A DNA stretch of 64,000 nt from an uncultured Armatimonadota bacterium (GTDB lineage Bacteria > Armatimonadota > Fimbriimonadia > Fimbriimonadales > Fimbriimonadaceae). Under the pieces are notes generated by a model. That model was given only the letters and a program-made list of their open reading frames with translations. It ran no database searches and was not told the origin of the DNA. Position numbers and translations under genes: made by a program. The stretch lies in the NCBI GenBank assembly GCA_903833215.1, contig CAILEM010000061.1:1-64000 (forward strand). Direction: 5' to 3'. Below, piece by piece: positions 36,078 to 41,185 of this stretch (within the stretch, counting starts at the first letter, position 1; each line of letters opens with the position of its first letter).

Positions 36078-38489
36078 GTGATGATCGTTACGCAAATGCT
36101 TCTGGCATTGTCGCTCCTGCATGGTCAGGTCAACAGCCAGCCCGGATCACTCTTTCCGCCAAAACCACAGGATGCTGTGGTTTCGGCGGATTTTAGTTCG
36201 TGGCATGGCTGGACTTACCTCCAAGGTGCGCCGTCAACATGGCCCAAAATTTACGAAACCTCGGGTGATTGGACTGAAGTCCAAGAACGCTTTTTAGGGA
36301 TCAAACCCGAAAAACCTGCAGTTTGGCGAATGAAGGTCGTTATCTTTACGCGATTGCAATCGGATGGTCGTGATGCAAGTGGCGTTCTTCGCGAGCACCG
36401 TGCAACGATTGAGTCCGTTCAACTCGCCCAAGTGCGTGTGGCACTCCTTCGATTCAATGCGTATGTCGCCGCCAAGTTTAACGGCGCGGTAACGATCAAT
36501 CCGGACATTCAGATCGAAGGCGAGTGGATGCGGGATGCTGGAATCGGCGCGTTTGGTTCTGAATTCGCTCACAAATATTTTGAGCCCCGAATTAACGGCG
36601 GGTCTTATGAAGCCGAAGATAAGGTCTTCAGGGGACCATTCAATTCCGTGGTCTATATTCTTCCGGGGGCCCTGCCTTCTCCCGTCGCCGATACGATTGT
36701 CAACGATACGCCGGTTGCCGCAGTGTCGGCTTCTCCGGTTGGCAAGGACGGTATCACTTCAACCATTGACAAAGCGTTACGTAGTGCATGGTTTCGTCAG
36801 GTTTCAGTGAGGGCGAAGCAGCAGGGATATAAGGATATTTCCGTTGCAGCGCCAAAACCTGACGGCGTTGACGCATGGAATTCGTTGGTTAGTCTTGACG
36901 AAGTTCCTGCGCAAACCTACTTAGGGCGCCATGGCACGGTCTTGGAACTTCACCCCGCAGTTGCAGATCCGACTGAAGTCAAGATTTCCGAACTGGGCTC
37001 ATCCGACGCCAAGATCGTGCCTGATTCTGAAAAGGGACAGGTTCTCAAGTTTACGGAGACATCGGGTTTCCGAGAAGGTGGACTCAGCCTCCCTGCTCGT
37101 GCGGATGGTATGCCGATAGCAAAGTTGGACACAACTCCAACGCTGAATTTCTTCGCGAAGTCCACCAGTAAAGATCCCATTTCAATACGCGTCGAATCTT
37201 CCGAGGGCAAAGTCCTCTGGATTTCATTAGGGCAAGATCCGACACTCGTAACCCCGATGCAAGGAGCGGTTGTTGCCAGCGTTCCGTTTATCACGGATGG
37301 TAAATGGCAAAAGATCTCTGTAGACCTTAAGAGTTTAGGGCAGTCTGCAGGAATATCAGATGTCGCTCGATTGGCAGTTGAGCCAAGTCCCAATGCCAAG
37401 CTGGCAGGAAAGAACCAGCCAGAGCCGATTGAAGTGCAATTGGCCGATTTCAAGTTCTCGGCAGACCCGGCTGGACCAGCGATCGCTCCCACAGCTCCAA
37501 GTGCGACCTCAGATGACCCTGAAGCAAGAGCGCTCTTTGCTGCTAAGGCCAAGCAGCCGAGTGCTGAATTGGCCGTCTTGCTGAAAGATAAAAATCCTTT
37601 GGTTCGGCTCAATGCGACAACGACCTATATCGGATTCAAGGACACTACGGTTGAGGAAGCGCTCATCGCGAACAGCTTGGATTTGGATCCGTCGATTGCG
37701 GGCGCGGCCCTTACCGCACTCCAGGCAGAGGGAAGCGATACGGCGCGAGCCGTCGTCAAGCGATCGATCAGTGTGTCTTTGTCCGATTACGCAAAGATGA
37801 CTGCCGGAAGACTGATCGCCGAAACGAAAGACCCTAAAGCTGCCGAGGACGTTTCGAGACTATTGGCCAACAGGAGTTGGCAGGCTCACGTCTTGGCGGT
37901 GGAGGGGCTTGCCCAGATTGCGACACCGGAATCTCAGACATTCCGCATGGCCTTTATTGGTATGAGTGATCCCGCCGTGAAGTTGGCAGTGACCCGCAAT
38001 GCGGATGTTTCGCTGGATAGGGTCGCTTCGGCGCTCCTCTGGTCCGCTGTAAACGAGCCAAGTGATCGAGTTCGCGCTGAGAGCTACATCAAGTTGATTC
38101 AGTCAAGTGTCGCCACGAATAAATCCGAAGGCTATAAGGGTGTTCGCGACGACAGCAAATTTGTTCGCAAGCTCGTACTGGAATTTCTCGCCACACACCC
38201 TTCTGAAGAACATCGAAATGCTTTACGCACCGCAATCGCCGACCGCTCGGCGTCAGTAAGGGCCGCTTCGCTTGTTGCATTCGCTGCGCTTGAGCAAGCG
38301 GTCAACCTTGATGAAATCGGCAATGTACTCGATGATCTTGACCCAGGAGTGCAGTTGGCCCTTATCAACGTGGCAAAGAAGAAAGGCTTGAAGCTGCCTC
38401 AGAAGACCATTGACTCGATGCTTGCGAGTCCTGACACCGAAGTCAGTACGGCTGCAAAATCCTTAGCAAGCGGTACGACGGCAACTTAA
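36078..38489 (+). CDS. Large secreted protein with C-terminal HEAT-like repeats
   Basis: 803 aa, no family recognised. Signal peptide is within the first 22 residues (MLLALSLLHGQVNSQ). The first 190 residues are beta-rich (VSADFSSWHGWTYLQGAPST). A sandwich-like segment follows near 285-480, resembling a carbohydrate-binding fold (LKFTETSGFREGGLSLPA, then KWQKISVDLKSLG). The last 300 residues are alpha-helical repeats of about 35 residues in HEAT/PBS-lyase style (NPLVRLNATTTYIGFKD, DPSIAGAALTALQAEGSD, DRSASVRAASLVAFAALE). Exported HEAT proteins are often scaffolds. The start is GTG 36078 or the ATG at 36081; TAAAAT lies just before. Confidence 0.68.
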   Translation: MMIVTQMLLALSLLHGQVNSQPGSLFPPKPQDAVVSADFSSWHGWTYLQGAPSTWPKIYETSGDWTEVQERFLGIKPEKPAVWRMKVVIFTRLQSDGRDASGVLREHRATIESVQLAQVRVALLRFNAYVAAKFNGAVTINPDIQIEGEWMRDAGIGAFGSEFAHKYFEPRINGGSYEAEDKVFRGPFNSVVYILPGALPSPVADTIVNDTPVAAVSASPVGKDGITSTIDKALRSAWFRQVSVRAKQQGYKDISVAAPKPDGVDAWNSLVSLDEVPAQTYLGRHGTVLELHPAVADPTEVKISELGSSDAKIVPDSEKGQVLKFTETSGFREGGLSLPARADGMPIAKLDTTPTLNFFAKSTSKDPISIRVESSEGKVLWISLGQDPTLVTPMQGAVVASVPFITDGKWQKISVDLKSLGQSAGISDVARLAVEPSPNAKLAGKNQPEPIEVQLADFKFSADPAGPAIAPTAPSATSDDPEARALFAAKAKQPSAELAVLLKDKNPLVRLNATTTYIGFKDTTVEEALIANSLDLDPSIAGAALTALQAEGSDTARAVVKRSISVSLSDYAKMTAGRLIAETKDPKAAEDVSRLLANRSWQAHVLAVEGLAQIATPESQTFRMAFIGMSDPAVKLAVTRNADVSLDRVASALLWSAVNEPSDRVRAESYIKLIQSSVATNKSEGYKGVRDDSKFVRKLVLEFLATHPSEEHRNALRTAIADRSASVRAASLVAFAALEQAVNLDEIGNVLDDLDPGVQLALINVAKKKGLKLPQKTIDSMLASPDTEVSTAAKSLASGTTAT

Positions 38490-38603: not shown

Positions 38604-39908
38604 ATGACTAACACCAGGAATAGCGTTGTTTCGGCGGCAGGCGTGATTGCGTCAGTAGCCGTAATTGTAGTTGGGTTGCTGGCCAGGGAGCGCGCCGATC
38701 TTGGCGTGGTCAAGCCAACGGCAACGGTTGCCTCCATCGACCGACTTTTGGCATCGCGAACGGACGACCTCAATGTTCCTGCTGGCGATTACTTCTACGA
38801 GCTCAGTCAAAAACTCAAAGAGCAGTACGTCGAGCCAGTGACCGATGAGCAGAAGCTTGCATCAGGTGCGGTTCGCGGGATGATCTCAAGCTTGCGGGAT
38901 CCTCAGTCGCTTTACATGGATAAAACTCAGTTCAGCGCGTTCATCAACGCGAGAGAAGGCAAGTTTGAGGGTATCGGGGCTGACTTCGCACTTGTCACAG
39001 GACCGAAGAGCACACAGGCTGAAGCTATCCAGGAAACTCCCGGCGCTGACTCATCACCGGAAGATACGATGGCAACCGTCCGCGATATCCCTCGGCTTCA
39101 AGTAGTGAGTGTGGTTCCGGGTGGTCCGGCTGACAAAGCTGGAGTACAAATTGGTGATACCGTCTATTCAGTGGATGGTCACTGGGTTGTAAATAGCGAC
39201 CTTGTTCGAAAATTCCGAGCAGCCCAAAAAGCATTCCTCGCCAAGAACATGAAGCTCTCAGAGTTAAACGTCCTTAGGAATGAGATTCGAGCTAAAGCAG
39301 ACCATGCGATATTGCCGTTGAAGGCTAAAGATATGCTATTCATGGGCAAATCTGGAGTTGTTTCGGTCGTCTGGGACCGTGCTGGAACTCAGCGAACGAC
39401 AAAGATCGGAAAGGCACCTTCTACCTTGCCTGCATTTGGCGTTCGCGATGGTCAGATCACTTTGCCTTTCATCCCAAGCAGCGTTCAACCTCTGAAGCAT
39501 GAGATTGCCGGTAAGGCAGCCGTCACGATTGACCTTCGAAACAACACGATGGGTGACCTTGCAACGATGAAGCAGTGTTTGGAAATCATCGCTCCGAAAG
39601 GCCAGTACGGCACGTTCAATACGTATCGGCATGAAAGTCCGACCTCACTTGTAGTGAAGAACGGGAATCCAAGTCCACCCAAGATCACCCTCATTACGGA
39701 TAAGAGCACACGTGGTGTTGCGGAGATGTTTGCTCTTGCTCTGTCTTCAAGAGGAGTCGCTCGACTCTCCGGTTCTGAGACAGGCGGTGACCGAGACAAT
39801 CGCACGATTGTTCGGCTTCCAGACGGCTCAGGCTACACGATCGTCACTTCGGTCTACAAACCGACTCTCGGTACGACTACGACGGCTCACAAGGGAGGTG
39901 CCAAATGA
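38604..39908 (+). CDS. S41 C-terminal processing protease homolog without catalytic residues
   Basis: 434 aa with an N-terminal membrane anchor (about 10-28), the helical S41 N-terminal domain (LKEQYVEPVTDEQKLASGAV), a PDZ domain (about 165-210; VVPGGPADKAGVQIGDTVYS) and an S41 peptidase-like domain. At the catalytic Ser position the sequence reads STRGVAEMF, with Gly371 in place of Ser, and the Lys position is Asp396 (SETGGDRDN). Both residues of the Ser/Lys dyad are therefore missing, so it is very probably a pseudoprotease. It overlaps the intact CtpA gene by four bases (ATGA) and may regulate or pair with it. Confidence 0.85.
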   Translation: MTNTRNSVVSAAGVIASVAVIVVGLLARERADLGVVKPTATVASIDRLLASRTDDLNVPAGDYFYELSQKLKEQYVEPVTDEQKLASGAVRGMISSLRDPQSLYMDKTQFSAFINAREGKFEGIGADFALVTGPKSTQAEAIQETPGADSSPEDTMATVRDIPRLQVVSVVPGGPADKAGVQIGDTVYSVDGHWVVNSDLVRKFRAAQKAFLAKNMKLSELNVLRNEIRAKADHAILPLKAKDMLFMGKSGVVSVVWDRAGTQRTTKIGKAPSTLPAFGVRDGQITLPFIPSSVQPLKHEIAGKAAVTIDLRNNTMGDLATMKQCLEIIAPKGQYGTFNTYRHESPTSLVVKNGNPSPPKITLITDKSTRGVAEMFALALSSRGVARLSGSETGGDRDNRTIVRLPDGSGYTIVTSVYKPTLGTTTTAHKGGAK

Positions 39909-41185
39909 AGACCGCTGCTAAAATTTTGTCCTTCTTCGGCCTTTTGGTGTTGTGCTTCCTCTTTGGGTTTAGTTGGCAAGACATCCAGAAGGGCAAAGTA
40001 CCTTCCGTACGAACAATGGGATCGCTATTTGGCGTCAAGTCGGGCGCGGCGGCAACTCCTGAAGTCGAGTTTCAGCATGCCTACAGCGAAATCCTGACGG
40101 ACTACATCAAGCCTGTCAATAAATCAGATCTCAAGTATGCGGGGATGGAGGGCCTCATGGCCTCGCTCGGCGACCCCCACACGATGTTTATGCGTCCGAA
40201 GCTTGCTGAAGCGTTTAACGATGAAACGCGCGCAAACTTCGGCGGAGTTGGTGCTCGTCTTGGCCAAGACTCGATGGGTGCGAAGATCGTGGTTGTGTTT
40301 GAAGACGGTCCTGCGTATGCAGCCGGCATCCGTTCAGGAAACATCATCACGGGCGTCGATGGTAAGTCGGTCGCCGGAAAGGTCGTAGATGATATCGTCG
40401 GGATGGTCAAAGGCAAAGAAGGCACCATCGTGAAACTCACGGTGATTCAAAGCGACAAGCCGAAACCAGTGGTTATTACTGTCAAGCGTGCCCGGATTAT
40501 CGCTCCGACAGTTGATTCGAAGTACCTTGCCAATCACCAGGTTGGCTATATGTCGATTTCGTCCTTCTCCGAGCCCACTGCTGCCCAGTTTGATAAGGAA
40601 CTGTCGAAGCTGGAAGATCACCAGATCAAGGGTCTGGTCATCGACTTGAGGGAAAATCCAGGCGGCCTACTCGAGACGGCGGTTGATATGCTGAGCCGAT
40701 TCTTTGAGAACAAGCTCGTCGTGAAGATGAAGTTTCGTGATGGCCACGAGGAGTCGGCAAAGACCTACCCTGGAGTGATCCACGAGTTCAATTATCCGAT
40801 CGCAGTGCTCATGAATGAAGATTCTGCAAGTGCCGCAGAGATCTTTGCCGGATGTTTACGTGATTACGGCAGAGCCAAATTGGTAGGAACACATAGTTAC
40901 GGAAAGGCGTCAGTGCAAAACGTTTTTCCGCTGGTCGATCGATCGAGCGCAAAGATCACCATCGCGAAGTACTTCTTGCCCGTCACTCCATTTTTTGGTC
41001 GAAAGGTCGATCCCTATGGAGCATTCCTAAGCGGTGGATTGGAGCCTGACCTCAAAGTCGAGCTTTCCACGAGCACTGAAGTCACCTTTGGCGATCCAGC
41101 AACGGACAATCAGCTACTCAAGGCGATTCAGTTGCTGAATCCAACGCCAGGATCGACGGCCGCGTTGAGCGCAAAAAAGAAATAA
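39905..41185 (+). CDS. ctpA: C-terminal processing peptidase (CtpA/Prc, family S41)
   Basis: 426-aa periplasmic protease with an N-terminal membrane anchor (about 6-22). Residues 110-190 hold the PDZ domain (FEDGPAYAAGIRSGNIITGVDG). The S41 catalytic domain has Ser309 in NEDSASAAEIF, Lys334 in SYGKASVQ and Gln338, with the expected 25-residue Ser-Lys spacing. Substrates in the family include proteins tagged or processed at the C terminus and peptidoglycan enzymes. It is second in an operon with the catalytically defective homolog. A terminator follows at 41213. Confidence 0.93.
   Translation: MKTAAKILSFFGLLVLCFLFGFSWQDIQKGKVPSVRTMGSLFGVKSGAAATPEVEFQHAYSEILTDYIKPVNKSDLKYAGMEGLMASLGDPHTMFMRPKLAEAFNDETRANFGGVGARLGQDSMGAKIVVVFEDGPAYAAGIRSGNIITGVDGKSVAGKVVDDIVGMVKGKEGTIVKLTVIQSDKPKPVVITVKRARIIAPTVDSKYLANHQVGYMSISSFSEPTAAQFDKELSKLEDHQIKGLVIDLRENPGGLLETAVDMLSRFFENKLVVKMKFRDGHEESAKTYPGVIHEFNYPIAVLMNEDSASAAEIFAGCLRDYGRAKLVGTHSYGKASVQNVFPLVDRSSAKITIAKYFLPVTPFFGRKVDPYGAFLSGGLEPDLKVELSTSTEVTFGDPATDNQLLKAIQLLNPTPGSTAALSAKKK

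Follow-up and report, generated by a model that had tools for sequence, protein, structure and literature searches.

A putative pseudoprotease paired with a CtpA-like protease in Armatimonadota

Two overlapping S41/PDZ genes

The stretch of DNA analysed here (the window, 64,000 nucleotides) stems from an uncultured Armatimonadota bacterium with a genome of 6.2 Mb. It encodes two neighbouring S41/PDZ proteins, P1 and P2, whose reading frames overlap exactly as an earlier note, made from the letters alone, had described when it called them ATGA-coupled. The following features were identified, all on the forward strand.

36078–38489, +: HEAT-repeat protein, apparently with a signal peptide, upstream of the pair (HEAT_2, 6.5e-9)
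38604–39908, +: P1, putatively dead S41/PDZ (CTP-like) protein of 434 aa, consisting in order of membrane anchor, N-terminal helices, PDZ domain with helical insertion and S41 core, lacking a C-terminal dimerisation helix (open reading frame, Pfam, AlphaFold2, PDB matches)
38610–38702, +: N-terminal membrane-anchor helix of P1, residues 3-33 (predicted helix, hydrophobic sequence)
38781–38954, +: dimerisation-type N-terminal helices of P1, residues 60-117 (CtpB_N-like Pfam match, predicted helices)
39195–39344, +: P1-specific helical PDZ insertion, about residues 198-247 (helices 198-212, 218-233, 238-246)
39714–39716, +: GGT, Gly371 of P1, at the position of the nucleophile Ser309 (CtpB alignment)
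39789–39791, +: GAC, Asp396 of P1, at the position of the general base Lys334 (CtpB alignment)
39801–39803, +: CGC, Arg400 of P1, at the position of Gln338 (CtpB alignment)
39891–39899, +: Shine-Dalgarno-like AAGGGAGGT serving P2, within the end of P1 (read from the sequence)
39905–39908, +: ATGA stop/start overlap (4 bases) joining P1 and P2 translationally (sequence)
39905–41185, +: P2, predicted active CtpA-like S41 protease of 426 aa with Ser309-Lys334-Gln338 (TIGR00225, CtpB 4c2c match)

The Shine-Dalgarno sequence 5' of the P2 start was graded strong, and each protein carries an N-terminal hydrophobic helix. S41, PDZ and CtpB_N-like N-terminal domains were found in both proteins (P1: S41 2.2e-10, CtpB_N 2.4e-10, PDZ_6 3.7e-8), the CtpB_N-like match of P2 lying below the Pfam cut-off (8e-5); none was detected in P1 of another locus, L152. 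In the N-terminal region of the window's P1, helices are predicted at residues 60-75, 82-96 and 107-117, and the CtpB_N-like match covers residues 71-107.

P1 keeps the CTP fold and lacks the Ser-Lys dyad

Aligned with B. subtilis CtpB (4c2c, E 5e-56), P2 holds its own Ser309, Lys334 and Gln338, and it scores 282.7 bits against TIGR00225 (cut-off 218.6). With the Ser-Lys dyad, the conserved Gln, a PDZ domain and an S41 core, it has the features of an S41A CTP protease. P1 scores 74 bits against the same model, below the cut-off; in its alignment with CtpB (4c2f), Gly371 corresponds to Ser309, Asp396 to Lys334 and Arg400 to Gln338. Its S41 core, PDZ domain and CTP fold are evident from sequence and structure, but the dyad is absent. 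The AlphaFold2 model of P1 (mean pLDDT 83, core >90) matched CTPs in the PDB at Z 20-23 (D1 protease, CtpA/CtpB), and IRBP/RBP3 modules were also among the structural matches. That is, the alignments agree with the earlier reading of an intact site in the second protein and of Gly and Asp at the Ser and Lys positions of the first, and Pfam, AlphaFold2 and the predicted helix 3-33 agree with its view that the first protein keeps fold, PDZ domain and anchor.

Catalytic residues might also have been placed elsewhere in P1, but relocation was rejected, as no other Ser, Lys or His proved conserved among 144 homologues. Two residues before the Ser position, Thr369 is near-invariant (142/146 P1 proteins); its counterpart in the alignment is a Ser/Thr with a structural role in active CTPs.

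The pair is conserved in the order and widespread in the phylum

We searched 113 genomes of the order to which the window belongs (very probably Fimbriimonadales), 88 of them of high quality. The search detected P2 in 88/88 and P1 in 87/88 high-quality genomes, and since the remaining one (G068) encodes a divergent, low-scoring P1 adjoining P2, all 88 have the pair. P1 lies 5' of P2 on the same strand in 97 of the 97 pairs measured, and 68 of these share the same 4-base (-4) overlap. The dyad is missing from all 100 P1 proteins of the order (versus Ser-Lys-Gln in 96 of the 96 P2 proteins that span the site). At the Ser position, P1 has Gly or Asp in family f1, Arg or Lys in f2 and Asn in f3 and f5.

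Searches with a P1 profile revealed the P1 family in many further families of Armatimonadota; counted across the phylum, at least 21 families have the P1/P2 pair. Wherever P1 adjoins P2 in the loci read across the phylum, the dead gene comes first. Ser and Lys occur together in none of the 144 P1 proteins from 21 families: 131 have neither, nine hold Ser with Asp or Glu at the Lys position (f10, f31, f33) and four hold Lys with Gly or Asp at the Ser position. Every P2 spanning the site in this sample has Ser-Lys-Gln. Since the replacement of Lys by Asp is the most frequent change in P1, loss of the base may have preceded the other losses. Thus, the dead/active pairing claimed from the window alone holds in its relatives, and it is older and wider than one genome. 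Both findings that the earlier note had named as refuting its claim, a Ser and Lys at other places of P1 or relatives without the pairing, were looked for and did not turn up.

Ordinary active CTPs, none with an adjoining P1, were found in f6-9, f17-18, f20-23, f25, f28-29 and f35-44 as sampled. In f12, two fairly complete genomes with paired relatives (G137 and G144) lack both P1 and P2. Other tandems exist as well. At L200/L212 of f23 (genome G182), both CTPs have Ser-Lys-Gln, an active/active arrangement. A second S41/PDZ tandem lies on contig C67 of the genome that contains the window (L002 1003-2289 and L003 988-2283); both proteins have GSASE and seemingly Ala at the CTP Lys position (KSAGAV versus SYGKAS), and they possibly represent another S41 subfamily using a different base.

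The genomes of 84,980 species were also scanned with the P1 alignment. The best 80 of more than 500 candidates were ordinary CTPs only, and these loci from other phyla served as a control: each of their 82 S41 proteins has both Ser and Lys, and tandem S41 neighbours occurred at just 2 of the 80 loci. Phage protein families yielded no match.

P1 probably arose once and is under purifying selection

A tree of 118 proteins placed its 39 P1 proteins in a single clade (SH-aLRT 98) beside Armatimonadota CTPs, and therefore duplication and inactivation probably each happened once. P1 branches are long, which makes long-branch attraction a concern for this clade; it is supported apart from the tree by a Trp following the PDZ GD motif and by the insertion between PDZ domain and core. 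In this quick tree, the f1/f2 P2 proteins separated from the remaining P2 proteins, presumably a long-branch effect.

P1 evolves faster than P2, yet under purifying selection: dN/dS was 0.03-0.14 in most close pairs, and one pair, L093/L094, stood at 0.43. These values and the intact reading frames exclude a decaying pseudogene. With a protease fold, lost catalytic residues and a gene under selection, P1 fits the definition of a pseudoprotease as far as sequences can tell.

P1 is remodelled outside the active site

The distance between PDZ domain and S41 core is larger in P1 (medians 127-138 residues) than in active CTPs (102-104), and the inserted segment is modelled as two to three helices. 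A median of 35 residues follows the Lys column in f1/f2 P1 versus 84 in P2. These P1 proteins thus lack the C-terminal helix by which other CtpAs trimerise, and so the CtpA hexamer cannot simply be copied there. The column of the substrate-sensing Arg in the PDZ domain holds R or K in 137/143 P2 proteins, 23/23 single CTPs and 80/81 others, but R in just 13 of 146 P1 proteins, where the insertion makes the alignment less sure.

Gene neighbourhood

In f31, the gene order FtsE, FtsX, PcsB-like M23, P1, P2, polysaccharide deacetylase, LysM protein points to cell-wall remodelling as the likely context. The genome of the window has its FtsE-FtsX-M23 operon elsewhere (L296 803-3905, G000 contig C48), with no CTP pair after it. 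The HEAT-repeat protein (cluster c1) recurs upstream of the pair at about 50 loci in f1 and f2 of the order, where the usual arrangement is MTAP-like phosphorylase, HEAT protein, (RpiB), P1, P2. The known adaptors of CTPs are built of helical repeats, so the HEAT protein, judged by its position, is a candidate third component. In f19 (L145 2116-3826, L146) the pair directly follows the motA-motB flagellar stator genes.

Possible association of P1 and P2

At L146 both genes share one frame. Reading through the TAG and aligning the product with 13 further natural pairs of this kind allowed us to model P1 and P2 as one chain of 944 residues (pLDDT 80.4, pTM 0.72). Because we estimate a pTM of about 0.45-0.5 for two independently placed halves, the model probably positions P1 and P2 confidently relative to each other. 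The heterodimer prediction proposed in the earlier note, run in this fused form, is compatible with a defined heterodimer, although pTM does not score the interface and the joining of two homologues in one chain may by itself favour such a placement.

Covariation between P1 and P2 in 138 pairs was dominated by phylogeny and clade-specific columns, without enrichment of the N-terminal helices. The top scores exceeded those of within-family shuffles, but shared descent can explain this excess, and covariation was dropped as evidence of association.

P1 as a candidate resting subunit

CtpA dimers are known to work asymmetrically. In P. aeruginosa, LbcA activates only one subunit per CtpA dimer (PMC11021448), and in the N-dimer of H. 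pylori CtpA only one subunit can be active at a time, which costs half of the molecules (PMC12749690). P1 fits an always-resting subunit, because it has neither dyad nor sensor Arg, keeps the fold and appears to keep the N-terminal region. Judged by its sequences, P1 is dead, kept and paired with P2; its association with P2, and its part as a resting subunit that deals with substrates or gates P2, we infer. Most likely, selection has maintained P1 ever since a single ancient duplication as that half of a two-part protease which always rests. We give an even chance to the view that P2, a CtpA protease, has P1 as its dedicated non-catalytic subunit, the resting half of an asymmetric N-dimer. The fuller version, a genetically fixed half-of-sites protease in Armatimonadota, that is, an obligate CTP heterodimer in which P1 is permanently resting and handles substrate, falls somewhat short of even in our judgement. 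Against P1 as a dedicated subunit counts that many families, as sampled, manage with a single active CTP.

Under the resting-subunit reading, coupled translation would yield two membrane-anchored proteins whose N-terminal helices pair into an asymmetric N-dimer, with P1 always resting and P2 always active. The asymmetry of homomeric CtpA would have been split over two genes after the single duplication, and P1, no longer needed for catalysis, could have given up dyad and sensor Arg and acquired the helical PDZ insertion. We would expect this insertion to gate P2 and, in addition, to bring in substrates or sense a signal. Cell-wall enzymes are the likely clients, given CtpA biology and the FtsE-FtsX-PcsB/M23 neighbours in related families. 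For f1/f2, a P1-P2:P2-P1 heterotetramer is predicted instead of a hexamer, if P1 cannot trimerise.

The earlier note had offered a regulatory hetero-oligomer or a substrate adaptor. The hetero-oligomer is now best supported, because the N-terminal region appears to be kept, P1 is one co-inherited clade, both genes are jointly absent from two genomes, the fused model reaches a pTM of 0.72 and CtpA dimers have one active subunit; P1 may regulate P2. The adaptor stands as a rival: P1 might be a substrate-binding adaptor or scaffold, an analogue of NlpI or LbcA derived from a CTP, which would grip clients with its PDZ domain and inserted helices and pass them on to homodimers of P2, taking no subunit's place in the N-dimer. 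Known CTPs do use adaptors that bind cell-wall hydrolases (PMC11021448), the P1 PDZ domain is remodelled with a conserved insertion and Trp, and a missing C-terminal helix in f1/f2 would suit such a role. However, the apparent retention of the dimerisation-type region and that of the entire S41 core go beyond what an adaptor needs, and the pTM of the fused model is high. We consider the adaptor possible, if unlikely.

P1 could also be a brake on P2: as an inactive decoy, it would trap P2 monomers or close the P2 tunnel pending a signal. Coupled expression, translation of P1 before P2 and the PDZ autoinhibition of CtpB (discussed in PMC11021448) would agree with this, but we saw no release module or proteolytic removal signal in P1, and no good-quality genome of the order has P2 without P1, as an optional brake would allow; we regard it as improbable. 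Slightly less credit still goes to an independent, non-proteolytic function of P1 as an IRBP-like ligand binder of S41 fold that is merely co-transcribed with P2. Unrelated genes can share operons and IRBP/RBP3 modules resemble P1, but the fixed-order adjacency persists while other neighbours change between families, and the two f12 genomes lack both genes together. We consider it very improbable that P1 still works as a protease through another, or a displaced, nucleophile or base. The near-invariant Thr369 and the nine retained Ser residues could be cited for it, but the former has a structural counterpart in active CTPs, a conserved Lys or His that could act as partner is absent, the Ser is replaced by Gly, Asn, Arg, Lys or Asp lineage by lineage, and in P. 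aeruginosa CtpA the K327A mutation abolishes function in vivo (PMC11021448).

If P1 is indeed the resting subunit, the pair would show by natural example that CtpA dimers can do without catalytic ability in their resting subunit, and the split into two genes would make the question of its role testable. What P1 has apparently kept or changed (N-terminal region, PDZ insertion) versus what it has discarded (Ser, Lys, Gln and sensor Arg, in f1/f2 also the C-terminal helix) would hint at the resting subunit's task. For annotation, P1 genes match S41 peptidase models, yet they should not be counted as proteases.

Comparison with known systems

No dead/active S41 pair was found in the open-access literature, and within it the earlier note's remark of having seen none described for CtpA holds. 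Dead paralogues serving active ones are known in other families. In trypanosome AdoMetDC-prozyme, C. difficile CspC/CspA and the iRhom pseudoproteases, a dead paralogue or relative controls an active enzyme or signalling, but these belong to protein families other than S41. IRBP/RBP3 has S41-fold modules without CTP proteolysis; it is a eukaryotic retinoid binder unpaired with an active CTP, whereas P1 is paired. LbcA-CtpA and NlpI-Prc likewise combine a CTP that degrades cell-wall enzymes with a non-catalytic, envelope-anchored partner, yet LbcA and NlpI, both lipoproteins of the TPR type, have no relation to the protease, while P1 is a protease paralogue. In architecture the pair resembles the S41A proteases B. 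subtilis CtpB, P. aeruginosa CtpA and H. pylori CtpA, which share the fold, PDZ domain and S41 core and probably the N-terminal dimerisation helices, and whose full Ser-Lys-Gln site is found in P2. But CtpB and CtpA are homomers encoded by one gene, whereas the Armatimonadota have an additional gene for a partner that is dead and has diverged. In P. aeruginosa and H. pylori CtpA only one subunit per N-dimer is active at a time, and the Armatimonadota pair resembles this asymmetry fixed in genes.
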